NCBI GenBank assembly: GCA_905250025.1 | Contig: CAJNOJ010000147.1 | Coordinates: 1-64,000, forward strand | Source of the DNA: Adineta ricciae | Lineage: Eukaryota; Rotifera; Eurotatoria; Adinetida; Adinetidae | Direction of reading: 5' to 3' | DNA: 64,000 nt | In this document: positions 20,273-47,013 of the stretch, one piece after another | How the letters are laid out: every line of letters begins with the position of its first letter | How positions within the stretch are numbered: position 1 is the stretch's first letter | Made by a program: the position numbers and the translations under genes | Notes under the pieces: generated by a model | Seen by the model: the letters and a program-made list of their open reading frames with translations, nothing else | Database searches by the model: none | What the model was told of the DNA's origin: nothing

Positions 20273-20273
20273 N
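20273..20273. other. Single-n join between haplotype pieces
   Basis: Left side ends in the PARP region. The right side restarts at a point equal to 16564, so 3.7 kb of the same gene is shown twice at a few percent divergence. Confidence 0.9.
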
Positions 20274-23200
20274 CTCGTTATGATGTCAAGCGTCGTCTAA
20301 CTGTTCTCGAAACCGTCCGTATTTCGCGTTCATCTGCTGATCAACGTCAAGGTCGTGCTGGTCGAACGGCACCTGGTCACTGTGTTCGTTTGTACGAGGA
20401 TAAAGAATTAATACGACCACATATTGAACCGGAAATTCTCCGATCATCGCTCGATCTTGTCTTGTTACAGCTCATTCGACTGAATTTCAATCCAAGAACT
20501 TTCTCATTCATGGATCAACCCCAGGATGAAATGATTAATTATTCGCTTGATCTTCTAACTAGACTCAATTGTATCGAAGAACAAAGAATTACTAAACGAG
20601 GCGAGTTGTTCACCGAACTGGCACTTGACCCACGTTTCAGTGCATTTATCGTAGATATCTACAGTGAGTACAAAAATCTATTGAACCAAGCGGCTGCTAC
20701 TATAGCCATTCTTTCGGCACCTGGAGCCATTTTTTTCATGGGTGGTAGTACACAGGAGGCGAAACAAGAAGCAAAAGAACGTGTTGCTCTCGAAGCACGT
20801 AATTATAAAAGTGACCTTTTACATTTATATTCTGTTTACGATCGATGGAAAAACGCTGCTGGACAAAACATACAGGGCAGATGTTCGAACTGCAATAAAT
20901 TCATTAAATATTGTACATGTCGAGTGAGGCACAGCAATGAAAATAGTTTAAATAATAAAATTCTTCAACATGTTGATGGCGCTTGTATGGCCATAATTCA
21001 ACAAATAAAAGATACTCGTTGGCTTCAACCCGGTGTAAAACTTTCCGATGATCCCATTCGAATTATTGGATATCATCTTGCAAGCCTCTTTCCCGAACAA
21101 TGCGGTTATCTACTTGTTCCGAAATTACCCATCGAAGGCGTTCGTCTCCTATCAACTGATATTCGAGCAACCATCAGTAACACTAGTGTCTTCATGCAAA
21201 AACTACAGAAAGATTCCGACCGTGAACTGTATCAACATTTTATTGCGATGAACATAACACAGTTACCATCGGGAAGGTATATCATCGAAAGGCTACATCC
21301 GATCTTGAAGTCTGATGTCCCAGTACAATCATCGATAGAAAATTTGGTAACATTGGAAAATGTTGGATCGGAACTAGCGAAACAATTACGCTTCAAATTG
21401 ACCGCATTTAAGTTTGAACCTTGGGCGAAGTGGCTTGTTTACCATTACAATCAAACTCACTTTCGTTTTCTTATTTGGGGCTTAGAAGCAGATAAATCGA
21501 CAATCGTATCTATGGTTCAACGTTCCTATGATGAAGCTTTGAAAAAACTTTATGATGCGTATGAACTCTTAGATTGTGGCCCGATTAAAGCAAATTTTCA
21601 GAGCGGTTTGGTATGTACGCATATTAATCACATGCCGGATGCTTTGAAACTTCATTTGCAAAATGTTCCTGTTCAGCAAGTAGGCTCTTTGAAAGATTGG
21701 ATTAAGAAAATGACTGACATCGAATGGGATGAAATAAAAGCACATGGTTTTTACACTTCAAAAGTCGATCCAGAGAAGAAAAATGTCTTTCTTGTCTTCA
21801 AAAATGAAAACACATTTCAACGAGCATCGATCAAAATTCCAGTACAGTACATGATTACTCAGAGAAATGGTGTCGAACGAAATCGCAATGGGGAAAAGGA
21901 AACCTGGGCTCGAGAATTGGTAGTTCAAACTCCGACGAATATTACCGTTAACGACATTATCGAAGTATACGGTGAAGGTAATATCATGGCGTGCATTCAA
22001 GAAAATAAAGAATCACACGCTGAATCGTATGTCAAATTGGATACTTTGCCGCCTAATATTAATGAAGAATTACTTCGTAACTGTCTTCATAAATGTGGTG
22101 GACCTATTCCCAAATCTGTGTATGTTGGACGGACAAAAAATAACGCCAGTGGATGGGCGAAAGTAATATTTCGGAATGATCAGGAACGTAATGAAGCAGC
22201 AAACATTTATAACGTACAGTTATGTCGCGATATATTTCTAATAAGTTTTATCGGCAAAAATGGTCTGATGAAACAAAAATCTGTTCGAACGACCGTGACG
22301 AAAAACGATGATCCTTTTGCAAGGCATAACCGGATGTGTACCGCTCCTACAAACGTTTTTCGTATTACGACGGTGAATCGTGAAGCTGCTCGCTCAATAT
22401 ATTCTTCCTATTCGCATACATTCTGTTGGAAGATGGATAGTTCAGCAACAGTAACTATTCTTCGAACGGATTTATATCCAAATTTTGATAACACAATAGA
22501 CAACATCTGCAAGAAATTTTGCGTCCAAGTAAAACGTAAGAATATTGCAAATTTTGGTCAACGATGCACATTTAACAATGGTGATCCGCAGAAAACCAGC
22601 TTAGCTGCATCCATGCTTGCGCAAACGTTCACACCGATCAATATCAAATTGAATACTGAACGACAGAAACAATTATTCCATGAATTGGAAGATATTGGTG
22701 AAATACAAAAATGGGCGCTGGAATTATGTTTATGTATTAATCCGAATAGATATTTTACAAATATTGAAATTCATGGCACACAAACTGCTCAAGGCAAATT
22801 AATGCGTCGCATTGCCGATTATTCTGAAAGCTTCGATAAACGTTTTCGTGAACTGGAATTAAGTGCAAGTGTAGCAACATTCTTTGGGCCGCAGAAATCT
22901 GCATCAACTCGATTACAACAGATTGCATCTGAATGGTTGTCGAAGTCTTGTTTAATTTCATTTAATTCGAAATCAGCAACGATTACAATCATCGGCAAAC
23001 CAAACATAACACCGATGGAGATGAAAGCCTGCGAAGATGAAGTACTTCAATTTCTGAACGAAATTACTGCCACGACGGATAGTACAGAAAGTGATGACGA
23101 CGACGACGACGACGACAATGATGTGACACGTTTCGAGACAAGAAGACAAGAACGTCGGTGTGTTTTCTGCCAACAGAAATCATCAATTTCCACGGATGTT

Positions 23201-24628
23201 TTTCGAATATGTGGACATACATTTTGTCGTTGCACAGCTCGAGCGCTCGCTACATCTTGTGCATTTCCACTCCAATGTAAAGCTTGTCAGTCCAACATTC
23301 ATATTCGCGATATTCAAACTATCTTTAGTAACAATGAAAAATTAATCATGACTTTACTTAAAAATTCCATTCAGTCTTATTTAACAATGGATACTCAGAA
23401 TGATAATCGCGTCTTTTGTCCGAATAGTGACTGCGATGGATTGATAAAACTTGATAATGGCTATCACATGTGTTTAACTTGTGGTCAAAATGTTTGTCCT
23501 CGCTGTCAAGTCATTGATGACGAATTGCACATTGATCGAACATGTGACGAAGTCGTCGAGGAAAAGAAACATCATCCATTCCTATCGGAATTATTCTCTG
23601 CGGCGAGAAAATTTGTTAAAAACAACTGGCCATTCGACTCCATTGTACAACCAATGGGCACTGTATTTGAAAATCCTTATTTAAGAAAAGAATATCAATC
23701 ATTAATACGTTTCTACAAAGCTAATCAAGTATTAGGCTATTCAGTTCGACCAGATTTAGCCAAAGGATTCTTCGCGTATCATGGTTCGACGACTGAAGCT
23801 ATTGTTCCTATATGTCAGAATGGTTTCGATCCAAACCGGCGCATAAATCAAGTTCATGGACCAGGTGAATATTTTGGTGTATCTGCACTTATTTCCGATG
23901 CATATACTAAGAAGGGCATTGATTATAATGGATATAGTCAAATGATCATTGCTTTTATTCTTCGATGCACTCAGGTTACAAAAATCGAAAATTTCTGCTA
24001 TGTTGTCAATAATCCGAAGGATTGGACATACGCATTTAATTTACCTGTGCTTATCGTCACCTATGGAAGAAATCTTTATGGTCAGATATCTCCTTTTCCT
24101 AGTGAAATACCGTACTATTCCGAGATAGAATCGCTTTGGATCGCACCTTTTCAATGGTACTGGCAAAAAAGTAATGGGGAGTTTCATCTGTATAATGATA
24201 TGATGAATGAAATATTCGAAAAGCTTTACGTACACTGGAAGTTGTACGATGAACCTTCCGAATTTGAAACTCCACTGTTAAGTTCGCTCATAGAAGATCT
24301 CTCTGCGACTTATAAAATCGATTTGGCAAATAATCGACAGACGAATACAAGAACGTCACATTCACGACTGATTGTACGGCGATTGACACATACATCATCA
24401 GATAATCGACATTGGTTCTATTTCGATGATAATACTGGTTGGATATGCTACGAGCAACAAGCAGAAAATCAAATTGAGCAAGCATTTCAATGTTATCGTT
24501 CTGGTCAAGGATCCTTCACTGTAGATATTCGCCTTTCTGGTCGATCCGATACACACCAATTTAATTTCTTAAAAGGCCAACAACGAATCAAATCTACTAC
24601 CATGACAGCGAATATCAAACGTGAATGA
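20274..24628 (+). CDS. Same helicase-RBR-PARP-WWE gene, 3' two-thirds with true C-terminus
   Basis: Begins mid-helicase (RYDVKRRLTVLET) and runs to the TGA at 24628. Overlaps the previous copy up to 'ILRCTQV', then supplies the missing C-terminus: the end of the PARP-like domain (NLPVLIVTYGR) and two WWE modules. WWE 1 runs from about FQWYWQKSNGEFHLY to SRLIVRR; WWE 2 is HWFYFDDNTGWICYEQQAEN to the end. WWE domains bind iso-ADP-ribose or poly-ADP-ribose in PARPs and Deltex-type ligases, which fits the upstream PARP fold. The acidic run is one residue shorter than in the other copy, an in-frame allelic difference. The poly(A) signal lies about 120 bp after the stop. Confidence 0.85.
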
Positions 24629-24754: not shown

Positions 24755-25180
24755 ACTACACATTGCATTGGCTAAAACATCTCAGGTAAATATTAGTCTT
24801 CAATCGATAGTAACGGATGCACAGAACATTTTCTTTCCTTCCATGCTACTGGCATTTTATATTCCTTAGTCGTTCTGATTTTTTTCCAAGCTATTATTAC
24901 ATATAGACAGTATAGCATAAAAGTAATAGTGTTCATTTTACTCCATTGACAGCTCTGGCATAGACGTTTCTGTCACTCAATCAGGTAAAACGTTTCTTCA
25001 CAGGTTATTTCTGAACGCACTTTTCCAAATTACAGCTTTGTAACTACTATGAATAGAACAGAGCTTTGAATCCACAATAAAATCAAAGATTTATTTTTGA
25101 AATCGAAAACGTATTTAGAAAAGTTTTCTTGAATAGTACAAAGACTAGAACGATGAAGTTTGACGCTTTCAATTGCAACA

Positions 25181-25404
25181 GAGAATACATCCTATTCCGC
25201 AATGTTGCACATTTTGGAATCAGTTCCGCACACGGAATCACTTCCTACGATTCCGGAATTAACTCGAAGCAATTCCGGAATCGATACACGGCGATGATAG
25301 CCAGTCGCACTTAAGCAAGCATGCAATTCCGGAATCGTAGGAATCGATTCCGTGTGCGGAACTGATCCCCAAATGTTCAAGATTGCGGAATAGGATGACT
25401 GCTC
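25181..25404. mobile_element. Foldback MITE-like insertion, 224 bp, with 8-bp target duplication
   Basis: The two ends are inverted repeats (both contain CATCCTATTCCGCAAT when read inward), and the match continues inward through AGTTCCGCACACGGAATC, so most of the element can fold on itself. It is flanked by TTGCAACA at 25173-25180 and 25405-25412. The other haplotype (around 27115) has a single CAATTGCAACA and no insert, which is an empty site. An 8-bp duplication is typical of hAT-type transposition, but the terminal bases do not identify a family. It codes for nothing and must have been moved in trans. Confidence 0.8.
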
Positions 25405-25490
25405 TTGCAACAATGTCTGCCTCTTTGTAAACAATCACGAAGTCTTGTTAACAAAGAGAGCTTATCTTTATTATAGAACAGAGAAACGCA

Positions 25491-26221
25491 ATGGAAAATA
25501 TTATCAAGATGTTCGTCAGTGGCAGTTCAGCTGAAGGACAATCATATGCCAATCATTTTCGTCACGATAACCAGCTTCAAGATTTTGACTTCATGCTAGA
25601 AGTATGTGCCTTAAACTCCAATGATCAGTTAGTTCTAATTAACAATGCCCCGGGTTTCGTGTTGGTGAAGTGGTCGTCTGAAAATGTGACCAAAGATTTG
25701 CCGCATAACAGTCAATTCGTTGATGGTTTTCGCATGAAACAACAATTTGCCGATCACTACATATCCTCTGTAAATGCAAGCCCTCTCCTCGCAAGCCAGT
25801 TTAACACAACGACAGGCACAGCCAGTATAGAAGCAACTATTCAAAGTGATCTGATACACCAAGCTACAAAATTTCATAATGCTCTTAAATATGTCGAAAC
25901 ACTTCAATCCGATGAGAACAAGAAGAAAAAATTTATTGAATATCACGAATGGTGCGAAGATAATATCTCAAATATTTTCGATAAATGTTTACCAGAATTA
26001 CCTATGTACGATTATTTTGGTAAAAATTACGTCTCAGACTGTTTCTGTATGGTGAGCCCAGCTTTTGGATTTCAATTATCAGCTGAGCATCGTAAACGCG
26101 CAGAATCGGTGTTAAATTTTTATCTTAAATACCGACATTCCTATTGCATATCGCAGCAGATTTACAAATATCTTCAAAAATCTAGTTGCTTAGACACGCG
26201 ACCTGTCGATGCGGACCTGGT
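25491..26221 (+). CDS. cGLR-WW-HECT gene, 5' fragment (haplotype with MITE upstream)
   Basis: First 243 codons of the gene described at 27200, from MENIIKMFVSGSSAEG to 'RPVDADLV', ending at the n at 26222. It differs from the 27200 copy by scattered substitutions (for example VTKDLPHNS against ATEKLPHNG). The GSSAEG and DFDFM catalytic motifs are intact. It stops at exactly the base where the other haplotype piece also stops, as expected of two arms of one assembly bubble. Confidence 0.85.
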
Positions 26222-26222
26222 N

Positions 26223-26597
26223 CCTTCCGAATTTGAAACTCCACTGTTAAGTTCGCTCATAGAAGATCTCTCTGCGACTTATAAAATCGATTTGGCAAAT
26301 AATCGACAGACGAATACAAGAACGTCACATTCACGACTGATTGCACGACGATTGACACATACATCATCAGATAATCGACATTGGTTCTATTTCGACAACG
26401 ATATTGGTTGGATACGGTACGAGCAACAAGCAGAAAATCAAATTGAGCAAGCATTTCAATGTTATCGTTCTGGTCAAGGATCCTTTACTGTAGATATTCG
26501 CCTTCCTGGTCGATCCGATACACACCAATTTAATTTCTTAAAAGGCCAACAACGAATCAAATCTACCACCATGACAGCGAATATCAAACGTGAATGA
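26223..26597 (+). CDS. Helicase-PARP-WWE gene, C-terminal fragment (other haplotype arm)
   Basis: Starts in frame at PSEFETPLLSSL and gives the end of WWE 1 plus all of WWE 2 to the TGA, nearly identical to 24254-24628. It is the allele of that tail, not a separate gene. Its downstream sequence is the MITE-free version of the spacer. Confidence 0.85.
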   Translation, partial: PSEFETPLLSSLIEDLSATYKIDLANNRQTNTRTSHSRLIARRLTHTSSDNRHWFYFDNDIGWIRYEQQAENQIEQAFQCYRSGQGSFTVDIRLPGRSDTHQFNFLKGQQRIKSTTMTANIKRE

Positions 26598-27199
26598 AAA
26601 CTAGTTTATTCTACACATAACCTTTTTCTGTAATGAATAACACTAGTCAAAATAATTTTAAAAAAAAACAAAGTAAAAGGAAGAACAGCATATGAACGTA
26701 CTGTTTTTTGTATGTTAAATAAAACTACACATTGCATTGGCTAAAACATCTCAAGTAAATATTAGTCTTCAATCAATAGTAACGGATGCACAGAACATTT
26801 TCTTTCCTTTCATGCTACTGGCATTTATATTCCTTAGTCGTTCTGTTTTTTTCCAAGCTATTATTACATATAAACAGTATAGCATAAAAGTAATAGTGTT
26901 CATTTTACTCCATTGACAGCTCTGGCATAGACTTTTCTTCACAGGTTATTTCTGAACGCACTTTTCCAAATTACAGCTTTGTAACTACTATGAATAGAAC
27001 AAAGCTTTGAATCCACGATAAAATCAAAGATTTATTTTCGAAATCGAAAACGTATTTAGAAAAGTTTTCTTGAATAGTACAAAGACTAGAACGATGAAGT
27101 TTCACGCTTTCAATTGCAACAATTTCTGCCTCCTTGTAAACAATCACGAAGTCTTGTTAATAAAGAGAGTTTATCTTTATTATAGAACAGACAAACGCA
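26598..27199. other. Spacer before cGLR gene, MITE-free allele
   Basis: Collinear with 24629-25490 but without the 224-bp element and with a short deletion near 26935. Contains AATAAA at 26718-26723. No other gene seen. Confidence 0.7.
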
Positions 27200-30100
27200 A
27201 TGGAAAATATTATCAAGATGTTCGTCAGTGGCAGTTCAGCTGAAGGACAATCATATGCCAATCATTTTCGTCACGATAACCAGTTTCAAGATTTTGACTT
27301 CATGCTAGAAGTCTGTGCCTTAAACTCCAATGATCAGTTAGTTCTAATTAACAATGCCCCGGGTTTCGTGTTAGTGAAGTGGTCGTCTGAAAATGCGACC
27401 GAAAAGTTGCCGCATAACGGTCAATTCGTTGATGGTTTTCGCATGAAACAACTATTTGCCGATCGCTACATATCCTCTGTAAATGCAAGTCCTCTCCTCG
27501 CAAGTCAGTTGAACACAACGACAGACACAGCCAGTATAGAAGCAACTATTCAAAGTGATCTGATACACCAAGCTACAAAATTTCATAATGCTCTCAAGTA
27601 TGTCGAAACACTTCAATCCGATGAGAACAAGATGAAAAAATTTATTGAATATCACGAATGGTGCGAAGATAATATCTCAAATATTTTCGGTAAATGTTTA
27701 CCAGAATTTCCTATGTACGATTATTTTGGTAAAAATTACGTCTCAGACTGTTTCTGTATGGTGAGCCCAGCTTTTGGATTTCAATTATCAGCTGAGCATC
27801 GTAAACGCGCAGAATCGGTGTTAAATTTTTACCTTAAATATCGGCATTCCTATTGCATATCGCAGCAGATTTACAAATATCTTCAAAAATCTAGTTGCTT
27901 AGACACGCGACCTGTCGATGCGGACCTGGTNCCTATGTACGATTATTTTGGTAAAAATTACGTCTCAGACTGTTTCTGTATGGTGAGCCCAGCTTTTGGA
28001 TTTCAATTATCAGCTGAGCATCGTAAACGCGCAGAATCGGTGTTAAATTTTTACCTTAAATATCGGCATTCCTATTGCATATCGCAGCAGATTTACAAAT
28101 ATCTTCAAAAATCTAGTTGCTTAGACACGCGACCTGTCGATGCGGACCTGGTTCCGGCGATAAGACTTGATTTCTGGCCTTCTAACATGAATTGGTTTCT
28201 CAATCGACTGAAAACAAATCGGCCGCTACTTTTCGAAAAAATCGAGCCACTTCATATGCACATTATTCCAAAATGGTCTGGTAGAACAGAAAAGTCGAAT
28301 GAGAATATTGAATTTCGTTATTCATTCTCCGCCATTGAAAAAGAACTAGCCGACCAGCGATCACCTATCGAGCAAGTTTTAAATCGAGTAGCACGCGGTA
28401 TCTTTTATAAATATCTACATAAAAGTGTATTGAAGCCGCCATGTTCTAACAAAAAGTACTTGACATCCTATTTAGTTAAAACAACAATATTATGGATGTG
28501 TGAAACAAAGGATTTTGACAATATTTATGCTATAACCAATAGTTGTACTCCTCGAGTAGAAAAAATGTTGGCTCATCGACTAGCAAATCAATGGATAGAA
28601 TATGTTTGTTCAGTTTTAAAGTCTCGAATTTGTCCACATTATTTTATTGAGAATTTAAATTTATTGGAAGAATATACCGACGAATATCTGGATAACGCAT
28701 GTTATGTCCTGCAGAATAATGTGAACTTACGTGATGATCATCTAACTCAAATTTTTCAGACGCCGCCGAAAAATGAAGAATCGAATAAAGAAACCAGTGA
28801 TTATATGGAACATTTTTTCGCAAACATAGACGCATCTGAATTTTTTTCTGATAGCACAGACCTGTGCAATCAATTTATGCATGGTTTCAAAATGGATTTC
28901 AGTATATACGGCGGTGATGGTGACGGCGACGATGATGCTTTAGCTACTATATTTATATCGAGTTACTTGTTATTAAACATGATGGCGATATTCGACAATG
29001 TTGAATTAAATAACTGGCAATTATGGAAAGATTTGTTCATCAGCAATCCGTCAGAGCAGTCGCCAATCATATCTCAAAAAATGACAACAAGAAAGAACAC
29101 ACCAGTTTATACTTTAATGAACATGATTTTAGTCTTTAGCTTAGAAGAAGTAGATAAGTATGTTTCAGATGAAAATTTGAGCACTAAACTTAAAAATCTG
29201 GCCTCATGCCCAATTTTTCAAACTGGCGATATGATATCAATGAGTTTAACAAGAATGTTGCCTTTAATTTTACAGCAACCGGGAGTTCTTCTTTCTCACA
29301 GACGAACTGTTTTGGAAAATCCAACGAATATGGTACCGACGCTTGCCGAACACGTTAAAAAACAAACACCGGCTCATNAGTATGTTTCAGATGAAAATTT
29401 GAGCACTAAACTTAAAAATCTGGCCTCATGCCCAATTTTTCAAACTGGCGATATGATATCAATGAGTTTAACAAGAATGTTGCCTTTAATTTTACAGCAA
29501 CCGGGAGTTCTTCTTTCTCACAGACGAACTGTTTTGGAAAATCCAACGAATATGGTACCGACGCTTGCCGAACACGTTAAAAAACAAACACCGGCTCATT
29601 TTCGGAATATCCTCTACTCCGATTGTATACAACCAACGATTCCATCTACAACGGTGCCAGCGACGTTACATTCGAACGAAACGGTTGATGAAAATGTGAC
29701 TACACAGATGATAGAAGGATTCGTACTAGATGGCGAAGAGTTTAATACATTAATTAATGAGACGATTTCGTTTAATCAAACTCCATATTCATACTTACAG
29801 ACTCAGCAATATCTATCTAAGATAGATACCTCTCAAGTAAGGACTAACTTTTGCCTATATATCTATATTCTCCGTTTACACGCATCTGAAGTATTCGACT
29901 CGGACGACGAATAAGAACATATCCGGATGGGAAAGTCGATTCGATCAAACTTACAAGAGAATATTCTACGTCGATCATCACACTTTAGTCGTCACATGGA
30001 TTGCACCAACAGTCTACCATCTAGGTGAACGAATTCAGTGGTATGTTCAAACAGCAGTAGAGCATCGTGTTTCATCGCCCAGCAAATATAGAACAAACTT

Positions 30101-31324
30101 GCCGACTATAATTGATTTGGAATCGAATACTCCCAGTGCAGACGCTCTATTTAAATATGATACTACAGAATGGGAAGGTTTGCATCAGATGCAAGCGCTA
30201 GATAATTCCATGGACAGTCTAACGCTGAATGATGCTTGGTATATGTGTTCCGACCAACAAAATCGAACATACTTTATCAATTCAGAAAGCAAGATTCTAC
30301 AGTTGAATAGTCAGTTGGTGAAGGTAGAATAGACCAAAAATTCATGTCCATTCTGTCTTTTGTTGTTGTTGTTATAGGATGTTCAATCGTTGAGAATCTT
30401 GCTAGCAGTTAATACAACTACAGGACAATTGAACCTTGAAATTCAATCTAATAATTTCTTTCAAAGTTCTTACGATCTAATAATGAAGATGGAACCCTTT
30501 GAACTACGCAGAAAAATGTTTACAGTGATCTTATCAACTAACAGTATCTCGCTATACTTCAAAACATGTCGAATGAATGTACCTGTATTTCTCTTCGTAG
30601 AGGAAATGAGTCAAAAGGAGAAGAATGACTTTTGGTTTGTTCAACTTCATGAAAAAATGCTTGAAATGAAATTACTAGCAAAGCAGGACGCATATTACGA
30701 TCTCATCGACTCAGAAGTTCCAGATGTTTACTTTCGGCAAGTCATTGAACTAATGAAAACAAAACTGAGCATAATGGGGAATATTTATTAAAGATTTCTC
30801 GGGCGTCTTATGGCAATGTCAATCTACTACAGCGTGAGATTTCCGTTAAAGTTTCCGATATTCTACTACAGAATACTATTCAACAAAGAGTTGACATTGA
30901 ATCTGTTAGAACTGAAATATTTCGATCTTGACAATTTCAACAAAGCAAAACAAAAGACTGATAAACCAGTTGCAGAAATTCTACAAAGATATTTCGCAAA
31001 ACCAATCAAGCTCCAAATGATGCAAATACGACAAGGACTTAACGAGGTAAGACTGCCTTATGATCGACTTTTGTTACTCTATACTCATAGGTGATACCAA
31101 TTGAATGGATGGAACATCTGAACACTGAAGATATTGAAAAAATGATTAGTGGTTTCTGTACCGTACATGAAATGGAAAGAGCTCGTCAACAAGAAGAAAC
31201 TTCATTAGTGCATATGGCCACTGTTGATACTAAATCCGTCGATACAAATATTCCAACCAACGAAGATAATAAGTCTTCAACAGCTGACGTAGTAGTGAAA
31301 ACCAGATGTTGCACAATTCTATAA
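27200..31324 (+). CDS. cGAS-like receptor (Mab-21 NTase) fused to WW modules, HECT N-lobe and CaaX box
   Basis: Exon 1 starts at 27200 and ends at 29836; two 221-bp stretches are shown twice around the n at 27931 and 29378. Later exons are 29892-30323, 30378-30736, 30794-31046 and 31091-31324. All joins keep phase (introns 55, 54, 57 and 44 bp); collapsed length is 1,156 residues. The N-terminus has NTase motifs GSSAEG (11-16) and DFDFM (31-35), the third acidic site in 'VDADLVPAIRLDFWPS', and the Mab-21 helices 'EFRYSFSAIEKELADQ' and 'SYLVKTTILWMCE'. After a ~300-residue helical region comes a WW domain (GWESRFDQTYKRIFYVDHHT...W), a second WW-like motif, and a HECT N-lobe (SSYDLIMKMEPFELRRKMF, YFRFLGRLMAMSIYY, QIRQGLNEVIPIEW). 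The HECT C-lobe with the catalytic Cys is absent; the protein ends KTRCCTIL, a geranylgeranyl-type CaaX. cGLRs make cyclic dinucleotides on sensing nucleic acid; the fusion is my splice inference. Confidence 0.8.
27931..28152. repeat. n plus exact 221-bp repeat of 27710-27930 (assembly overlap)
   Basis: The 221 bases after the n match the 221 before it exactly by eye. With the n this adds 222 bases, a multiple of 3, so the reading frame survives and the duplication is easily mistaken for a protein repeat. Confidence 0.9.
29378..29599. repeat. n plus exact 221-bp repeat of 29157-29377 (assembly overlap)
   Basis: Same arrangement and same overlap length as at 27931. Equal exact overlaps at two joins are the signature of graph-assembly unitigs laid end to end without trimming. 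Confidence 0.9.
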
Positions 31325-32161
31325 CTATAGCATTCGAAATATCCATAGATTCAAGCACTTCGTCAAATTATGACGAGTAAATCATATAACGAAAGAGTTT
31401 CTCCGTAGACACAACTATTGAGCTGTCTGCGGTATAAAAACTAAAGATCTTATCGAATTGACCATGCTTATTTATAATCTGAGTATTCAAAATTCGTAAT
31501 CAGCACACCCACTAGGGAAAGGGGAGTGCTTAAATTCCTTTGTTCTTTAATTATTATGCACTTCAGAAGTATAAGTAGATCTTAATTATAATTTTGATAG
31601 ATGTCTGAAGTGCATTTTTGGTTTATCTGCGCTCAAGATACACGTCACAACTGACGTAACGAAGAAATAAATATATGAGAAAGTTGTGAGGCCTATCTGT
31701 AGGCTTTGTCAAAGAAAATAATAAATATCAAATTCTCTCAATGCTCAGACGTGCATTCTCTAATCTCATCCTTTCCTAGATAAGACTTCGGGATTCATCG
31801 AAATCTGCATGATCGATTGATACTATGAAAATGATGATAATGGATGTTAAAGATGACGTGTTCTTCAATTTCCAGTTACTTTCTTGCAAAATGCAATAAA
31901 GAATTTTCTAGTGGCAATATTATTTGTTCAAAATGGATCACACTTTCATTAAATAAATTTTTAATTTGATGTTATCATTTATACACATGTAATCCTTTAA
32001 GAAACGCTATGACGCAAATCATGAAAAAAAAATTGCCTAGTTTAACCTGCAAGACAATTAGATTTATTACCTATTTTTATTCTGCTTTTACACAACGATA
32101 TCAAACTTACAGATATACAAGACAAATTTTGAATTAAAAATCTTTCATCAACTACAAGACG
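31325..32161. other. Intergenic between cGLR gene and 7TM receptor
   Basis: AT-rich and collinear with 35986-36836. Holds a conserved inverted repeat (31557-31614). No gene recognised; it should contain the cGLR 3' UTR and the receptor promoter. Confidence 0.55.
31557..31614. repeat. Conserved 11-bp inverted repeat (hairpin)
   Basis: TGCACTTCAGA and TCTGAAGTGCA are separated by 36 bases. The other haplotype (about 36213-36272) keeps both arms with one changed base at the outer end. It could be a terminator-like hairpin, a very small MITE or a protein site; function unknown. Confidence 0.5.
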
Positions 32162-33220
32162 ATGGCTTTACTTACAACACTCATCAACATCTACTACAAT
32201 ATCGTTCGTTATTTCATGTCGTTAATCTTCTTTTTTGGAATTACCGGTTCATTATTGAACATTATCTTGTTTTCTCGCCAAAAACTAAGACAAACATCAT
32301 GCTGTATTTGTATGTATCGATATTCAGATTCGATTTCATCTCTATCCACTTTATTTTCAGTAGATTTTCTTGCAGCATCATTCAGTAGCCTTCTGTCGTT
32401 ACTTTTTGGTTTAATTCCGACGTTTTATCTACTCAATAACGTCTATCCTGGTAACTATTCCGTTGTGTTCTGTAAAATGCAAGGATACATCACTCATACA
32501 AGCCTTCAAATGACACGAGTGCTTCTCGTTCTGGCTTGTTTCGATCGTTACGCTCTTAGTTCATCCAGTAGTTATTTGAGAAAGTTTGCAACTGTCTCCA
32601 TTGCACGTCGATGCGTTCCTGTCGTAATGTTATCATGTTATTTAATCGCAATTCATTTAATTATTTATCTTGATGTTGTCAATAGTTCTTGTGGTATTTA
32701 TCAATTATCAGTATTAATCTATAATAGTGTTTATTCGATAGCAACAATATCGATTACAATGCCTTTGCTCATGTTCATTTTTTCGTTCTTAACGTTTGTG
32801 AATTTAAAACAGCGTCAAAAGAAACGACAGCAAATGAATTCAGCAGCGATTCATCGAGATATCATTCGCGATAAGAAGGTGTTTTTTACGTTATTAGTGC
32901 AATTATTGTTGTATTTCATATCAACAGGATTGTATGCACCGAATATCATTTATACAACAATTACGCAAAATATGCCGAAATCATCGGATCAACAAGTGAT
33001 TGGACTCTTTATTAACGCATTTGCGCTGCTTCTTATCTATATCTATCCTGGCTTCTCATTTTTGGCTTTTACAGTTTCATCGAAAACATTCCGAAGAGAA
33101 TTATTCAATTTAAGGAAACTATTTCCATTTTACTGCGTACGACGCACAGCAGTGTTACCTTACACGACTACGAATCGAAGGATGAACACAAACGACGCAA
33201 CCAATAATCAAACATTTTGA
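32162..33220 (+). CDS. Seven-transmembrane receptor, rhodopsin-like, bdelloid type
   Basis: Open over 352 codons, but bases 32310-32363 are very probably a 54-bp intron (GTATGT...GTAG). Its length is a multiple of 3 and it has no in-frame stop. Splicing turns an unlikely polar stretch into 'CCIYFLAASFSSLLSLLFGL', the normal TM2 of this family, giving 334 residues. TM1 is GITGSLLNIILF; the TM3 end has DRY in 'LACFDRYALSS'; Cys residues before TM3 and in ECL2 (SSCGIYQ) can pair; TM7 is YPGFSFLAFTVSS, lacking NPxxY. The tail is basic and short. Bdelloids carry many such orphan receptors, likely for peptides or environmental cues; the ligand is unknown. The allele is at 36837. Confidence 0.8.
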   Translation: MALLTTLINIYYNIVRYFMSLIFFFGITGSLLNIILFSRQKLRQTSCCICMYRYSDSISSLSTLFSVDFLAASFSSLLSLLFGLIPTFYLLNNVYPGNYSVVFCKMQGYITHTSLQMTRVLLVLACFDRYALSSSSSYLRKFATVSIARRCVPVVMLSCYLIAIHLIIYLDVVNSSCGIYQLSVLIYNSVYSIATISITMPLLMFIFSFLTFVNLKQRQKKRQQMNSAAIHRDIIRDKKVFFTLLVQLLLYFISTGLYAPNIIYTTITQNMPKSSDQQVIGLFINAFALLLIYIYPGFSFLAFTVSSKTFRRELFNLRKLFPFYCVRRTAVLPYTTTNRRMNTNDATNNQTF

Positions 33221-33804
33221 ATCTAATGTGTTGTGTTCTCTTGTAAATGTTTGAAAATAAATCTACATAAGTGTGGTATTGTATGTTCACTGTATACGAA
33301 AGGAATATATTAATGCAATTAGTATTTCACTCATTCCTGTCGCATATCATTACTCGGCATAATCGTACCTTACGAGTTTCACATAGTATGCAGAGTGTGA
33401 AACAGCCTATTCACTTTTGTAAAAATCTAAACGTAAATAATCTTCAACGAATGACGAATTGCATGCTTATGAACTATGATTTAATTAGGTTAGATAGAGT
33501 ATGTCAAAGAAATATCCATATGATTCCTACAGTAATAATTATTAATCGCTTTGCATTTACATTAGTTTCTGATATGTAGAAGATTATATACAGCGAGGTT
33601 TTGTTGAACAGAAAATTGTGCGTATACATCAAGTTTTGCCATTACTAAAACGAAATCCGTTCTCTTTCGTATTCATACATCATAAACAGATGTGCATATT
33701 CTCTCAAACGCCTTCTTTCCGAGAATGATGGAAGTTGATTCAGGAATCTGTCGTGAATAAGCATGTCTTTCTCTCGCACCACCTGCTTCTTTCGCTGAAT
33801 GGAG
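33221..33804. other. Intergenic between 7TM receptor and BRICHOS-like gene
   Basis: Contains AATAAA-type sequence shortly after the receptor stop (around 33255). An apparent plus-strand frame at 33271-33579 is broken by small indels in the other haplotype and is not accepted as a gene. Confidence 0.55.
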
Positions 33805-33812
33805 TATAAAAG
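33805..33812 (+). promoter_or_regulatory. TATA box of BRICHOS-like gene (first copy)
   Basis: TATAAAAG lies only 9 bp before the first in-frame ATG (33821). Transcription normally starts about 25-32 bp after a TATA box, so that ATG would be upstream of the mRNA; the ATG at 33848 is the likely start. Confidence 0.7.
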
Positions 33813-33847
33813 ATAACGCAATGATTTCGATCTATAATCAATTGAAA

Positions 33848-34041
33848 ATGTTGAAAACTTTTGCTCTCCTTCTGATAACTTGTGCTGCGTTTGCTACAGC
33901 ATTAAAACAACATCGTACTGTTGGCATTATTGAAAATGGAATGTTCATCGAACAGACTGTTACTCATTATGACGATCTCCACGTCATCGAAGTACCTCAA
34001 CATGGTGATCGTGCTCACATCATGGCTTATCTGGATTTTCG
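33848..34041 (+). CDS. Secreted BRICHOS-like protein, 5' fragment
   Basis: Encodes the signal peptide MLKTFALLLITCAAFATA and the following ~45 residues up to 'IMAYLDFR', then hits the single n at 34042. After the n the sequence jumps back into the cGLR gene. It is the allele of the complete gene at 38521. Confidence 0.8.
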
Positions 34042-34042
34042 N
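34042..34042. other. Single-n join, second bubble arm begins
   Basis: The sequence after the n starts AGTATGTTTCAGATG, the same point at which the previous arm began (29379). The 29379-34041 and 34043-38713 stretches are therefore alternative versions of one region. Confidence 0.9.
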
Positions 34043-35985
34043 AGTATGTTTCAGATGAAAATTTGAGCACTAAACTTAAAAATCTGGCCTCATGCCCAAT
34101 TTTTCAAACTGGCGATATGATATCAATGAGTTTAACAAGAATGTTGCCTTTAATTTTACAGCAGCCGGGAATTCTTCTTTCTCACAGACGAACTGTTTTG
34201 GAAAATCCAACGAATATTGTACCGGTGCTTGCCGAATGTGTTAAAAAACAAGCACCGGCTCATTTTCGGAATATTCTCTACTCCGATTGTATACAACCAA
34301 CGATTCCATCTACAACGGTGCCAACGACGTTACATTCGAACGAAACAGTTGATGAAAATGTGACTACACAAATGATAGAAGGATTCGTACTAGATGGCGA
34401 AGAGTTTAATACATTAATTAATGAGACGATTTCGTTTAATCAAACCCCTTATTCATATTTACAGGCTCAGCAATATCTATCTAAGATAAACACCTCTCAA
34501 GTAAGGACTAACTTTTGCCTATATATCTGTATTCTCCGTTTACACGCATTTGAAGTATTCGGCTCGGATGACGAATACGAACATATTCGGATGGGAAACT
34601 CGATTCGATCAAACTTACAAGAGAATATTCTACGTCGATCATCACACTTTACTCGTCACATGGATTTCACCGACAGCCTACCATCTAGGTGAACGAATTC
34701 AGTGGTATGTTCAAACAACAGTAGAGCATCGTGTTTCATCGCCCAGCAAATATAGAACAAACTTGCCGACTATGATTGATTTGGAATCGGATACTCCGAG
34801 TGCAGAAGCTCTATTTAAATATGATATTACAGAATGGGAAGGTTTGCATCAGATGCAAGCGCTAGATAATTCCATGGATAGTCTTACGCTGAATGGTGCA
34901 TGGTATATGTGTTCCGACCAACAAAATCGAGCATACTTTATCAATTCAGAAAGCAAGATCCTACAGTTGAATAGTCAGTTGGTGAAGGTAGAATAGACCA
35001 AAAATTCATGTCCATTCTGTCTTTTGTTGTTGTTATAGGACGTTCAATCGTTGAGAATCTTGCTAGCAGTTAATACAACTACAGGACAATTGAACCTTGA
35101 AATTCAATCTGACCATTTCTTTCAAAGTTCTTACGATCTAATAATGAAGATGGAACCCTTTGAACTACGCAGAAAAATGTTTACAGTAATCTTACCAACT
35201 AACGGTATCTCGCTACACTTCAAAACATGTCGAATGAATGTACCTGTATTTCTCTTCGTAGAGGAAATGACTCAAAAGGAGAAGAATGACTTTTGGTTTG
35301 TTCAACTTCATGAAAAAATGCTCGAAATGAAATTACTATCAAAGCACGAAGCATATTACGATCTCATCGGCTCAGAAGTTCCAGATGTTTACTTTCGGTA
35401 AGTCATTGAACTAATGAAAACAAAACTGAGCATAATGGTGAATATTTATCAAAGATTTCTCGGCCGTCTTATGGCAATGTCAATCTACTACAGCGTAAGA
35501 TTTCCGTTAAAGTTTCCGATATTCTACTACAGAATACTATTCAACAAAGAGTTGACATTGAATCTGTTAGAACTGAAATATTTCGATATTGACAATTTCA
35601 ACAAAGCAAAACAGAAGACTGATAAACCAGTTGCAGAAATTCTACAAAGATATTTTGCAAAACCAATCAAGCTCCAAATGATGCAAATACGACAAGGACT
35701 CAACGAGGTAAGACTACCTTATAATCAACTTTTGTTACTCTATACTCACAGGTGATACCAATTGAATGGATGGAACATCTGAACACTGAAGATATTGAAA
35801 AAATGATTAGTGGTTTCTGTACCGTACATGAAATGGAAAGAGCTCGTCAACAGGAAGAAACTTCATTAGTGCAGATGGCCACTGTTGATACTAAATCCAT
35901 CGATACAAATATTCAATCCAACGAAGATAATAAGTCTTCAACGGTTGACGTAGTAGTGAAAACCAGATGTTGTACAATTCTATAA
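34043..35985 (+). CDS. cGLR-WW-HECT gene, 3' part, second haplotype
   Basis: Exons are 34043-34500, 34556-34987, 35039-35397, 35455-35707 and 35752-35985, with every phase as in the first haplotype. It ends with the same KTRCCTIL. Here the third intron begins GTAAGT (canonical); in the other haplotype the same site reads GCAAGT. The apparent in-frame stop at 35399 is thus intronic. Both haplotypes keep the WW signature residues and the HECT N-lobe core, which supports the fusion as a real, selected product. Confidence 0.8.
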
Positions 35986-36836
35986 CTAGCATTCGAAATA
36001 TCCATAGATTCAAGCACTTCGTCAAATTATGACGAGCAAATCATATAACGAAAGAATTTCTTCGTAGACACAACTATTGAGCTGTCTACGGTATAAAAAC
36101 TAAAGATCTTATTGAATTGACCATGCTTATTTATAATCAGAGTATTCAAAATTCGTAACCAGCACACCTACTAGGGAGGGAGAGAGCTTAAACACCTTTG
36201 TTCTTTAATGATTATTCACTTCAGAAGTATGAGCAGATCTTAATTATAATTTTGATAGATGTCTGAAGTGCATCTTTGGCTTATCTGCGCTCAAAAGGCG
36301 CACGTCACAACTAGCGTAACGAAGGAATGAATATATGAGAAAATTGTGAGGCCTATCTGTAGGCTTTGCCAAAGAAAATAATAAATATCAGGTTCTCTCA
36401 ATGCTCAGACACGCCTTCTCTGATGTCATCCTTTCTTAGATAAAACTTCGGGATTCATTGAAATCTGCATGATCGATTCATACTATGAAAATGATGATAA
36501 TGGATGTTAAAGAAGACGTGTTCTTCAATTCCCGGTTGCTTTCTTACAAAATGCGATAAAGAACTTTCTAGAATACAATTTGCCAGTGACAATATTATTT
36601 TTTTCAAAATGAATCATACTTTCATTAAATAAATTTTTAATTTGACGTTATCATTTATACACATTTAATCCTTTAAGAAGCGCTATGACGCAAATCATGA
36701 AAACAAAATGTCTAGTTTAACCTGAAGGAAAATTAAATTTATTAACTATTTTTATTCTGCTGTTACACAACGACATCAAACTTGCAGGAATATAAGACAA
36801 ATTTTGAATTAAAAATCTTTCAATAACTACAAGACC
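35986..36836. other. Intergenic, second haplotype copy of 31325-32161
   Basis: Collinear with small indels, including an extra ~14 bases near 36570. Keeps the hairpin at about 36213-36272. Nothing else recognised. Confidence 0.55.
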
Positions 36837-37895
36837 ATGCCTCTACTTACAACACTCATCAACATCTACTACAATATCGTTCGTTACTTCATGTCGTTAA
36901 TCTTCTTTTTTGGAATTACCGGTTCATTATTGAACATTATCCTGTTTTCTCGCCAAAAACTAAGACAAACATCATGCTGTATCTGTATGTACCGATATTT
37001 AGATTCGATTTCATCTCTATCTACTTTATTTCCAATAGATTTTCTTGCAGCATCATTCAGTAGCCTTCTGTCGTTACTTTTCGGTTTAATTCCGACGTTT
37101 TATCTACTCAATAACGTCTATCCTGGTAACTATTCCGTTGTGTTCTGTAAAATGCAAGGATACATCACTCATACAAGTCTTCAGATGACACGAATGTTTC
37201 TCGTTCTGGCTTGTTTCGATCGTTACGCTCTTAGTTCATCCAGTAGTTATTTGAGAAAGTTTGCAACCGTTTCCGTTGCACGTCGATGCGTTCCTATCGT
37301 GATGTTATCATGCTATTTAATCGCAATTCATTTAATTATTTATCTTGATATTGTCAATAGTTCTTGTGGCATTTACCAATTATCAGTATTAATCTATAAT
37401 AGTGTTTATTCGATAGCAACAATATCGATTACAATGCCTTTGCTCATGTTCATTTTTTCGTTCTTAACGTTTGTCAATTTAAAACAGCGTCAAAAGAAAC
37501 GACAGCAAATGAATTCAGCAGTGATTCCTCGTGATATCATCCACGATAAGAAGGTGTTTTTTACGTTATTAGTGCAATTATTGTTGTATTTCATATCAAC
37601 AGGATTGTATGCACCGAATATCATTTATACAACAATTACGCAAAATATGCCGAAATCGTCGGATCAACAGGCGATTGGACTTTTTATTAACGCATTTGCG
37701 CTGCTTCTTATCTATATCTATCCTGGCTTCTCGTTTTTGGCTTTTACAGTTTCATCGAAAACATTCCGAAGAGAATTATTCAGTTTAAGGAAACTATTTC
37801 CATCTTACTGTGTACGACGTACAGCAGTATTACCTTACAGGACTACGAATCGGAGGATGAACACAAACGACGCAGTCAATAATAAAACATTTTGA
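36837..37895 (+). CDS. Seven-transmembrane receptor, second haplotype
   Basis: Allele of 32162-33220 with about a dozen amino-acid changes. The 54-bp intron is 36985-37038; its acceptor region reads CCAATAG where the other allele has TTTTCAGTAG, so the shared TAG is the acceptor used in both. DRY and the TM7 sequence are unchanged. The exon sequence is better conserved than the flanks, so the gene appears to be under constraint. Confidence 0.8.
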   Translation: MPLLTTLINIYYNIVRYFMSLIFFFGITGSLLNIILFSRQKLRQTSCCICMYRYLDSISSLSTLFPIDFLAASFSSLLSLLFGLIPTFYLLNNVYPGNYSVVFCKMQGYITHTSLQMTRMFLVLACFDRYALSSSSSYLRKFATVSVARRCVPIVMLSCYLIAIHLIIYLDIVNSSCGIYQLSVLIYNSVYSIATISITMPLLMFIFSFLTFVNLKQRQKKRQQMNSAVIPRDIIHDKKVFFTLLVQLLLYFISTGLYAPNIIYTTITQNMPKSSDQQAIGLFINAFALLLIYIYPGFSFLAFTVSSKTFRRELFSLRKLFPSYCVRRTAVLPYRTTNRRMNTNDAVNNKTF

Positions 37896-38477
37896 ATCTG
37901 ATGTGCTGTGTTCTCTTGTGAATGTTTGAAAATAAATCTACATAAGTGTGATATTGTATGTTCACCATATACGGAAGGAATACATTAATGCAATTAGTAT
38001 GTCACTCATTCCTGTCGCATATCATTATTCAGTATAATCGTACCTTACGAGTTTCACATAGTATGCAGAGTATGAAACAGCCAATACACTTTTGTAAAAA
38101 TTTAAACGTAAATAATCTTCAATGAATGATGAATCTCATGCTTGAACTATGATTTAATTAAGTCAGATAGGCTATGTCAAAGAAATATCCATATGATTAC
38201 TACAGTACTAATAACTACTCGCTTTGCATTTACATTAGTTTCTGATATGTAGAAGATTATACACAGCGAGGTTTTGTTGAACAGAAAATTGTTCTTATAC
38301 ATCAATTTTTGCCATTACTAAAACGAAATCCGTTCTCTTTCGTATTCATACATCATAAACAGATGTGCATATTCTCTCAAGCACTTTCTTTCCGAGAATG
38401 ATGATAGTTGATTCAGAAATCTGTCGTGAATAAGCATGTCTTTCTCTCGCACCACCTGCTTCTTTTGCTGAATGGAG
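37896..38477. other. Intergenic, second haplotype copy of 33221-33804
   Basis: Collinear with the first copy but with several indels. No gene recognised. AATAAA follows the receptor stop at about 37932. Confidence 0.5.
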
Positions 38478-38485
38478 TATAAAAG
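38478..38485 (+). promoter_or_regulatory. TATA box of BRICHOS-like gene (complete copy)
   Basis: TATAAAAG in the context GGAGTATAAAAGACAAC, conserved in both haplotypes. Its distance to the two candidate ATGs (9 and 36 bp) favours the second. Confidence 0.75.
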
Positions 38486-38520
38486 ACAACGCGATGATTT
38501 CGATCTATAATCAATTGAAA

Positions 38521-39363
38521 ATGTTGAAAACTTTTGCTCTCCTTCTGATAACTTGTGCTGCGTTTGCTACAGCATTAAAACAACATCGTACTGTTGGCAT
38601 TATTGAAAATGGAATGTTCATCGAACAGACTGTTACTCATTATGACGATCTCCACGTCATTGAAGTACCTCAACATGGTGATCGTGCTCAAATCATGGCT
38701 TATCTGGATTTTCGTTCGGGTCTTCAGCTGATCAAAGATGTGAGAAGTCAAAGATGTCAGCTGTCCAACATGGAAGCAGCAACACGAATTGCTCATTCGA
38801 AGATGGTTTCCATGAAATCAGCCGACAATGGCCTTTCGATGCCCGATCTTCCAGTCGATGCGAGTGGTGTGGAAGAAATTCGTGTTTTCAAACTCGAACG
38901 ACAAGATGTGATTCAAAATATATCACATCTTCGCTTGGAATTTCAACAAGCATGTGCTGGCTTAGCAATTCATTGGGCTGATTCGGTGAATGAGAATGAT
39001 GTCGATGGAATGGTACGAAATGGTGAATTAATGTATGATAAACAAGAAAAGATCATGATTCAACCAACAAATCCAGATAGTCGACTCAATCAACGAAATT
39101 CTTGTAATCCGAATCCTCAATTAATGCCTCCGACCCAGTTTACTTGTCACGGCAACTGTGTGAATCAAAAATGCATAGCAATGTCAAATTCAGGTTATTA
39201 CTTTATTCTTTGCCCATTGAATGGAAGTATCGGACAAAGTTGCGCGACGCATGTTGCTCATACAAACGGTAAGTGTAAGTTATGCTGCAACGATCCAAAG
39301 TCATCTTGTTTACCACCCTCGAACAGTGGTTTTTGGCAACGTTGTGATTGTGTAGTAATATAG
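38521..39363 (+). CDS. Secreted BRICHOS-like protein with Cys-rich C-terminus
   Basis: Single exon, 280 residues from the preferred Met (289 if the upstream ATG at 38494 were used). Signal peptide MLKTFALLLITCAAFATA. Residues ~25-150 resemble a BRICHOS pro-domain: a beta-rich start, then 'IMAYLDFRSGLQLIKDVRSQ' and a Cys shortly after (RCQLSNM), much like the 'D(F/Y)..G..AY.....CYLM' core of that family. The last ~80 residues hold 13 cysteines (CNPNP...CHGNCVNQKC...CKLCC...CDC), likely a disulfide-bonded secreted module. BRICHOS domains act as intramolecular chaperones for aggregation-prone secreted peptides; that assignment is tentative. AATAAA follows at about 39426. Confidence 0.65.
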   Translation: MLKTFALLLITCAAFATALKQHRTVGIIENGMFIEQTVTHYDDLHVIEVPQHGDRAQIMAYLDFRSGLQLIKDVRSQRCQLSNMEAATRIAHSKMVSMKSADNGLSMPDLPVDASGVEEIRVFKLERQDVIQNISHLRLEFQQACAGLAIHWADSVNENDVDGMVRNGELMYDKQEKIMIQPTNPDSRLNQRNSCNPNPQLMPPTQFTCHGNCVNQKCIAMSNSGYYFILCPLNGSIGQSCATHVAHTNGKCKLCCNDPKSSCLPPSNSGFWQRCDCVVI

Positions 39364-39996
39364 TTCTGTTGAATGACCTACTTTTTTCTCGTACTTGTAC
39401 AGAGTAAAAATTCTTTATTGAAGAATAAAATCAATTATTCATTTTTTTTTCGTAATGAACGAATATATCCAAAGAAGACACTTAATGGTGTCGATTTTTA
39501 CTTTCTTGTCCTCGACATCCTCTTCTTCCCATCATCTGTTGGAGCGATGAAATATCACATTCGATTCCTTGATGTTGATGAACATCAGAGAATCAAGTTC
39601 ATTTCAACATGACAATCTCGATTGAAGTCACTAGGTGAAATTGAAACAGTTTATGTACAAATGGACAATCCATGTTTTAGTATTGACTCTCTTTCGATGA
39701 ATCATTGATGAAAATATGTTCGTTTTAGTTTTCTTTTCGTTTGATCTTAGTAGATTAGCAATAATTACTAAGATTAATCGCCTTTTAATCGTTAATGTAG
39801 TTATGTGAAGTACATAAAATATTTATGCGATGCAGTTATTATTTATTATAATAAATTCGTTCACACTTACACCGATAAAAAATAAAACTGATGAACATTT
39901 CCTGTTTCGCACTTTCTATAGACTAGTTCAGTTGCATTTATGTTTGCCTTCAAGTGCTTGTTGAAGCTAGTGAAAAATAATCATTATCTGTAAGTA
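39364..39996. other. Intergenic, convergent genes
   Basis: Lies between the ends of the BRICHOS-like gene (plus) and the mucin-like gene (minus). Contains AATAAA on plus at about 39426 and TTTATT at 39842-39847, a minus-strand AATAAA about 150 bp beyond the mucin-like stop. Short open frames here have no family features. Confidence 0.6.
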
Positions 39997-46913: not shown

Positions 46914-47013
46914 NNNNNNNNNNNNNNNNNNNNNNNNNNNNNNNNNNNNNNNNNNNNNNNNNNNNNNNNNNNNNNNNNNNNNNNNNNNNNNNNNNNNNNN
47001 NNNNNNNNNNNNN
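46914..47013. other. 100-n assembly gap joining two overlapping haplotype pieces
   Basis: Left of the gap is the start of the third Cys-domain. Right of the gap the sequence restarts inside the 16-residue repeat block, about 6 kb earlier on the map. The ~25 bases on either side deviate from the repeat or domain consensus toward higher GC, as at the 11162 gap. Confidence 0.9.

Follow-up and report, generated by a model that had tools for sequence, protein, structure and literature searches.

A cGAS-like nucleotidyltransferase gene model that continues into WW and truncated HECT exons and a CaaX end in the rotifer Adineta ricciae

The gene model and the layout of its locus

The window analysed here is a stretch of 64,000 nucleotides from the rotifer Adineta ricciae (contig CAJNOJ010000147.1 of assembly GCA_905250025.1, positions 1 to 64,000 of the forward strand), which lies on contig C147 of the 1033 contigs (130 Mb) that we searched. 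It contains a five-exon gene model on the plus strand (27200-29836, 29892-30323, 30378-30736, 30794-31046 and 31091-31324), whose predicted product runs from a Mab-21/cGAS-like nucleotidyltransferase (NTase) through a C-terminal extension, a WW domain, a degenerate WW and a remnant of the HECT N-lobe to a CaaX box. The initial annotation had treated 27200-35985 as one gene. This span has to be divided: the model ends at 31324, another open frame lies at 32147-33220 between the 3' copies (a weak 7tm_1 match in Pfam, 22.2 bits against a cut-off of 30.5), and 34043-35985 is a copy of the 3' half only. We refer to three copies, all on the plus strand: copy A (25491-26221), the N-terminal half of the NTase; copy B (27200-31324); and copy C (34043-35985), the 3' half.

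Exon 1, with the NTase, Mab-21_C and the C-terminal extension, is supported by its open frame, its Pfam matches and a profile match to the structure 8gjy. Intron 1 (29837-29891, 55 nucleotides, phase 0) connects exon 1, with the NTase, to exon 2, with the WW domain, through the borders CAA/GTAAGG...CTGAAG/TAT, and corresponds to 34501-34555 in copy C. Exon 2 carries the WW domain and the degenerate WW-like motif, and exon 3, after intron 2 (30324-30377, 54 nucleotides in copy B and 51 in copy C), opens the HECT N-lobe according to Pfam and the alignment to WWP1 and WWP2. Intron 3 (30737-30793, 57 nucleotides) is of the GC-AG type in copy B and of the GT-AG type in copy C (35398-35454). Exon 4 continues the N-lobe from FLGRLMAMSIYY to GLNE, and intron 4 (31047-31090, 44 nucleotides, phase 0, NE/VIP) precedes exon 5, which holds the end of the N-lobe and a new tail, is only weakly HECT-like when taken alone, and ends in a stop codon at 31322-31324. 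Copy C has its exons at 34043-34500, 34556-34987, 35039-35397, 35455-35707 and 35752-35985 (stop codon at 35983-35985), with introns 1, 3 and 4 of the same lengths as in copy B, all four at the same places, and with the same frame and the same CTIL end. Without splicing, the frame stops within intron 3 at different spots in the two copies (30791 in B, 35401 in C), and one common splice reopens both; after splicing, copy B is free of frame breaks in all its five exons, and so are the copy C exons present. The claim that four introns are in frame in both haplotypes thus holds for the 3' half, while the N-terminal half of the NTase has a pair of its own (25491-26221 and 27200-27931).

The locus is interrupted by single Ns at 20273, 26222, 27931, 29378, 34042 and 60259 and by 100-N gaps at 11162 and 46914. 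Self-BLAST revealed that some 221-222 bases are printed on both sides of the Ns at 27931 and 29378 with no difference except the N itself (27710-27933 against 27932-28155, and 29154-29377 against 29376-29599, one mismatch in 224 each), and that 29379-34041 and 34043-38714 share 94.4% identity from a common start point; the contig of copy C begins where the overlap at 29378 does, with 95.9% identity over 221 bases. The most plausible reading of the locus is that contig ends which overlap, and allele branches, were placed end to end. Because of the overlapping contig ends, we regard the two 74-residue repeats in exon 1 (27710-28153 and 29157-29599, plus strand) as assembly artefacts. Once both overlaps are collapsed, exon 1 encodes 731 residues, near the length of the 730-residue open frame of a paralogue on contig C423, and the whole protein has 1156 residues. 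Copy A is 97.1% identical to copy B, with 12 of 243 residues different. The open frame 25452-26597 (plus strand) is a chimera at the N at 26222, passing from the NTase half of copy A to the WWE end of the second copy of the upstream gene, and would give a false gene in automatic annotation.

The junction between the two halves lies on an uninterrupted contig, which is free of Ns from 29379 to the stop codon; the first residues that it encodes are 580-653 of the collapsed protein. None of 500 shuffles aligned as well as this segment, and residues 586-635 belong to the collinear match to the C423 paralogue. Since the N-free contig opens with C423-collinear residues, sequence of the cGAS-like receptor (cGLR) type and the WW and HECT exons stand on one contig. 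Between copies B and C, over 1500 nucleotides from the tail of exon 1 to exon 4, dN was 0.031 and dS 0.080 (dN/dS 0.39); by part, the ratio was 0.31 for the exon 1 tail, 0.65 for exon 2 and 0.29 for exons 3 and 4. The N-terminal NTase half of copies A and B gave dN 0.0225 and dS 0.0656 (0.34), and exon 5 of copies B and C gave 0.028 and 0.065 (0.42). These ratios suggest constraint on the predicted protein, weakest in exon 2. We consider it probable, from the DNA, that the NTase and the WW-HECT part form one polypeptide.

The nucleotidyltransferase half and its paralogues

Exon 1 scored above the Pfam cut-offs for Mab-21 (PF03281, 38.1 bits against 24.1, E = 2.2e-9, residues 237-309) and Mab-21_C (PF20266, 33.9 bits against 24.1, E = 3.5e-8, residues 342-428), which bears out the predicted cGLR-type fold for residues 237-428. 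When the PDB was searched with a profile of four family members, the best match was cGAS-like receptor 1 (8gjy, 3.3e-13), which we take to be cGLR1 of S. pistillata; MB21D2 (3.1e-6) and mab-21-like 1 (1.1e-4) followed, and cGAS itself did no better than 0.036.

The complete set of NTase motifs named by the initial annotation is present in the open exon 1. The G-S motif GSSAEG (27230-27247) and the D-x-D metal-binding pair in DFDFM (27290-27304) were assigned by pattern and are collinear with C423, and the third catalytic Asp, the D of DLVPAIR, lies inside the Mab-21 match at 28145-28147 and is printed a second time, at 27923-27925, within the contig end that overlaps there. Because the window protein aligns collinearly with C423 (window residues 2-635, 41.8% identity, E = 1.1e-165) and with a second paralogue on contig C331 (residues 6-540, 31.0%, E = 4e-67), the motifs can be aligned within the family. 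Both G-S and D-x-D are kept in four of the five family loci that show the region, namely the window, C423, the L020 copy on C331 and C579, and are lost in C39; outside the window the first reads GS-x-x-EG in all three, and the second DFDYM in C423, DLDMM in C331 and DLDFM in C579. The third Asp is kept in the window, in C423 (IDLVP) and in both C331 copies (ADFVP), and is lost in C39. In an hhalign comparison of the family with other Mab-21-like genes, the local run covered residues 190-439 only and gave no support for the G-S and D-x-D assignment. A non-collinear register for the post-N stretch on C423 (blastp E = 0.017) was replaced by the collinear whole-exon alignment. Three further searches yielded no match: STING_LBD (PF15009) in an exon-by-exon genome search in which the controls were equally silent, the first 418 residues by tblastn against a phage collection, and the family alignment against viral contigs, where none of 103 pattern-matching stretches was confirmed.

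The paralogues differ in what follows the NTase. For C423 we found no WW or HECT match and, by eye, no further exon before a run of Ns, and it appears to be a stand-alone cGLR of 730 residues. In C331 (L020, 1394-5402), the cGLR exon is followed by the junction TCACAG/GTATAT...TTTTAG/TCTGTA (phase 0) and then by an open reading frame with TPR repeats (TPR_12, 3.5e-33). This 3' module resembles an ADP-ribosyltransferase-like TPR protein of the window (E = 5.2e-10, 23%), has no counterpart of its FLSTS or of its E-rich stretch before VLF, and shows HRTV in place of YRGQ. The name ADP-ribosyltransferase-like is our assumption from sequence motifs; Pfam gave no ADP-ribosyltransferase match for C331 at E<=1 and none among the best 25 of 34 families for the protein of the window. 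C331 looks like a cGLR joined to a degenerate ADP-ribosyltransferase-TPR module. The second copy on the same contig, L021, has the same junction and a 3' frame that stops early, at 4383; it may be broken or misassembled. We also considered a common origin of intron 1 and the junction in C331, each of which stands in phase 0 after Ser-Gln; similarity gave no support for this idea.

The ADP-ribosyltransferase-like TPR protein of the window occurs twice on the minus strand, at 5674-8277 and 11262-13030, on either side of the 100-N gap at 11162-11261, which shortens the second copy. Another gene, on C185 (L045, 1156-3309), has a single frame of 718 residues in which ankyrin repeats precede an NTase of the cGLR-like type (GSFYEN, DEFDLM, DVVPC); the ankyrin-cGLR order is a known architecture (PMC9980059, in excerpt).

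The WW-HECT half, the CaaX end and the neighbouring genes

The spliced tails of both copies matched Pfam WW (45.1 bits in B and 36.9 in C against a cut-off of 26.9; E = 1e-11 and 3.7e-9) and Pfam HECT (47.3 and 46.6 bits against 23.9; E = 3e-12 and 4.6e-12). In the PDB search with the tail, the best 10 of 58 matches were WWP1 (one entry as WW domain-containing protein 1), WWP2 and Itchy, with WWP1 at the top (E = 1.3e-17). Outside the window, the genome matches listed were two stretches on C52 and one on C81 (three of nine rows), both of which carry WWP-type genes. The HECT domain is visible only in the spliced protein: the HECT profile in the exon-by-exon genome search listed 81 matches, none of them on C147. 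Pfam, the PDB sequence match and the shared introns described below agree that the 3' exons are HECT-like.

The WW domain (GWESRFDQ..FYVDHHTLVVTWIAP, 29922-30008, tail residues 11-39) aligns with WW2 of the C52 and C81 genes and the residues after it. A second, WW-like motif without the second Trp (AWYMCSDQQNRTYFINSESKILQL, 30225-30305) lines up with their WW4. It was the second WW stretch at E<=1 in Pfam, and 30225-30281 reached E = 2.2 in tblastn; the motif that had been proposed here is degenerate and its match is weak. Of WW3, only an end-piece (TTEWEGLHQMQ..LDNS) has been left. Compared with C52 and C81, exon 4 lacks 41 residues in gaps of 24, 8 and 9, among them FYKSLLWIRDNNLDNNDNLE, presumably the segment that contacts the E2. 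Reviews place the E2 site of HECT E3 ubiquitin ligases (E3s), in the parts available, on the N-lobe. When 27000-39500 was searched by tblastn, the E2-binding region found nothing better than E = 5.6, and the C-lobe with the catalytic Cys, including a further downstream exon, nothing better than E = 2.6, on the opposite strand; no match to the C2 domain was found by tblastn. Exon 5 departs from the WWP family after about 30 residues and alone gives tblastn E = 1.3 in copy B and 0.11 in copy C. The description of a WW domain with a HECT N-lobe devoid of its C-lobe is therefore upheld in both copies, and the suggestion of possible E2 binding has to be withdrawn.

The introns point to the source of this half. 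Introns 3 and 4, at YFR/FLGRL and NE/VIP, coincide in the alignment (columns 328 and 454) with introns of C52 and C81. Intron 3 agrees with C81 in position and phase and with C52 in column (C81 DNA: TTTCG/GTAAAA...TTTTAG/ATTTATCGG), and intron 4 agrees in position with C52 (NE/VVP; GAA/GTACTA...TTTAG/GTTGTTCCA). The exon ends of the E3 genes were placed by eye, and the boundary before HECT (columns 200 and 199) is approximate. These two shared positions make a WWP-type gene the probable source of the 3' half, and we regard them as good evidence for an intron-keeping duplication. Like WWP1, WWP2 and Itch of the NEDD4 family, and like C52 and C81, the window gene has WW followed collinearly by the HECT N-lobe. 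Unlike these E3s, it is shown by the alignments and the tblastn searches to lack C2, WW1, most of WW3, the putative E2-binding segment and the C-lobe with the catalytic Cys, and it has a degenerate WW4, an NTase in front and a CaaX box behind. With these losses, ubiquitin transfer is not expected.

The protein ends in KTRC-CTIL, with the CaaX box CTIL at 31310-31321 and identically in copy C. As a background, we took the ends of open reading frames of at least 40 residues from 22 loci and from the window without 25001-38000, which are mostly non-coding: the strict pattern C-[VILTASFM]-[VIL]-L occurred in 1 of 1505 distinct ends, and the loose C-x-[VILMAFT]-x in 22. CTIL is also the CaaX box of human OAS1 p46; geranylgeranylation was found in p46 and in p42 to which CTIL had been attached, and in neither p42 nor p46-ATIL (PMC8357416, in excerpt). 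In a yeast assay, CTIL was among the few sequences fully modified by human GGTase-I (PMC11152559, in excerpt). The geranylgeranyl-type ending noted earlier is thus present in both copies and equals a proven signal, and by analogy the CTIL end of the window protein would be acceptable to the prenyltransferase.

Upstream of the gene are giant open frames at 14517-24628 (plus strand), ending about 600 bases 5' of cGLR copy B, with the last piece repeated at 26223-26597. They match DEAD/Helicase_C, IBR and WWE in Pfam, show CCCH-like and PARP-like stretches by eye, and form two copies, 96.9% identical, on either side of the N at 20273. An RNA-helicase/E3/WWE protein adjoining the cGLR suggests an immune-gene neighbourhood. 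On the other side lie long low-complexity repeat frames on the minus strand (40851-42029, 44156-44851, 46466-47677 and 50076-51098), which are several copies that have diverged and are built of units such as GATGKPEHESTHKAEH and ATEKAHATEA. Elsewhere in the genome, a bacterial-type DNA methylase family had two matches, on C2 and C5 (L049 and L050), the C2 copy being fused to a chromodomain; such a fusion is a hallmark of bdelloid rotifers. C2 also bears a strong HECT match.

A candidate tethered sensor and competing explanations

We see about an even chance that a single gene here encodes a membrane-anchored cGLR whose adaptor derives from a dead E3. According to this model, the NTase, which retains its three catalytic carboxylates, would respond to a ligand, probably nucleic acid, by producing a nucleotide signal. 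The C-terminal half would come from the 3' end of an E3 gene of the WWP/NEDD4 family, which was placed together with its introns behind a stand-alone C423-like cGLR; its source follows from homology and intron positions, and the time and route of the joining are presumed. The dead E3 half may act as a PPxY-binding scaffold adaptor, and CTIL, if geranylgeranylated, would tether the sensor to endomembranes, as the identical motif does in human OAS1 p46.

The window gene resembles animal cGLRs in its Mab-21 NTase, Mab-21_C, G-S motif, D-x-D pair and third Asp, and differs from them in the model by the missing N-terminal helix and by the long extension after Mab-21_C. Li et al. report that 87% of cGLRs have no appended domains; TPR, ankyrin, death-domain and multi-cGLR fusions are named in the excerpted text of that preprint, WW and HECT are not (2023 preprint, PMC9980059). 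Within the same cGLR subfamily, C331 likewise has an apparent phase-0 intron before a 3' module whose enzyme domain is degenerate, but that module is ADP-ribosyltransferase-like with TPR repeats, not WW-HECT. With human OAS1 p46 the window protein shares an NTase of the predicted immune-sensor type that ends in CTIL; to our knowledge, OAS1 belongs to the OAS branch and has neither WW nor HECT. We found no cGLR-HECT or cGLR-WW fusion by title or abstract start in the open-licence part of PubMed Central, and such a fusion could sit among the "Other" architectures of Li et al. The building blocks are known, and their combination and the ending of a dead E3 plus a CaaX box look new.

Several observations weigh against the tethered-sensor model, and we consider most of them together with the explanations that they favour. 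Conservation of the CaaX box is visible only between the two close copies B and C. On the common OAS1 body, CTIL brought no rise in antiviral activity and less Golgi co-localization than in p46 (PMC8357416, in excerpt); because CTIL alone was insufficient there, the protein context matters. AlphaFold2 on 27932-29374 alone gave a mean pLDDT (predicted local distance difference test) of 33.9, and that structural model was discarded. The fusion is predicted from genomic sequence, and the 78 residues of exon 1 beside the WW exon (654-731) are the least supported part of the model: 39 of 500 shuffles aligned as well to C423 and 152 of 500 to C331, so that this stretch is not clearly like any compared paralogue. 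The locus could instead produce two neighbouring transcripts: the mRNA of a stand-alone cGLR would read through intron 1 and stop at 29914, and the WW-HECT remnant would be a gene of its own, for example one trans-spliced at the 29891 acceptor. Exon 1 of copy B is indeed open through intron 1 to 29914, C423 appears to stand alone, and in copy C an ATG in the right frame stands just ahead of the WW domain (YSARMTN). However, exon 2 of copy B has no in-frame ATG ahead of its WW domain, the phase-0 junction is in frame in both copies, and the read-through is unlike between them (stop at 29914 in B and at 34692 in C). We judge two transcripts unlikely, with one chance in several.

A second explanation, to which we attach the same modest weight and which is compatible with one polypeptide, is that the protein acts throughout as an adaptor: its NTase would be a Mab-21-type scaffold without catalysis, and no second messenger would be made. 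The Pfam and PDB profile matches begin downstream of GSSAEG and DFDFM, the PDB matches after cGLR1 are MB21D2 and mab-21-like 1, and the relative C39 has lost the motifs. In cGAS structures a bridging N-terminal helix precedes the G-S motif. The gene model starts with MENIIKMFVSGSS, only 10 residues ahead of GSSAEG, and has no such helix. The bases preceding the ATG, TTTATTATAG, are acceptor-like, and no conserved coding exon was seen upstream of the ATG by eye in two copies; trans-splicing occurs in rotifers, and a trans-spliced leader upstream of exon 1 is possible. Against a dead NTase, the G-S motif, the D-x-D pair and the third Asp have been kept in the window, C423 and C331 although C423 and C331 share only 41% and 28% identity with the window protein.

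Less probable still is a decaying fusion, a once-functional gene that is now a pseudogene and still looks open. WW3, the E2-binding segment and the C-lobe have been lost, one copy has a GC-AG intron, the dN/dS ratio of 0.65 leaves exon 2 poorly constrained, and the introns are barely less alike than the exons (90.9-96.4% for introns 1-4 and 95.1-97.6% for exons), which means that identity by itself is no sign of constraint in copies as similar as these. Decay is opposed by the frame, which is unbroken after splicing in copy B and in the present exons of copy C, by the dN/dS ratios overall, in exons 3 and 4 and in the NTase N-half, and by the 3' flank, in which the copies are only 88.2% alike. 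An assembly chimera of a cGLR and a WW-HECT gene that are not true neighbours, suggested by the single Ns that join contigs at 26222, 27931, 29378 and 34042 and by the layout of overlapping allele ends, is very improbable, since the overlap at 29378 is identical but for the N, the contig of copy C has the same start, and both contigs run without an N from cGLR-like residues via WW to the HECT end.

A more far-reaching idea, which we put forward as speculative and on a par with the decaying fusion, is that this cGLR subfamily captures broken host protein-modifying enzymes as baits for pathogen factors. Plant "integrated decoy" receptors are the model for this reading; in the open-licence part of PubMed Central we found no paper that brings integrated decoys together with cGAS. 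The NTase would be the alarm and the CTIL anchor would place the window protein at membranes, as in OAS1 p46; the baits would be a WWP-type ligase without its E2-binding segment and C-lobe in the window gene, and in C331 an ADP-ribosyltransferase-like domain without STS and E-E-E, together with TPR repeats.

Returning to the tethered-sensor model, if the predicted protein is expressed as one chain, it would be a cGLR with a built-in adaptor and a membrane anchor in an animal group about whose antiviral sensing little is known. Sensors of the cGAS/OAS type would then have a CTIL prenyl anchor in a second instance, from a different branch, and the protein would be a testable example of a sensor bearing an inactivated host enzyme.

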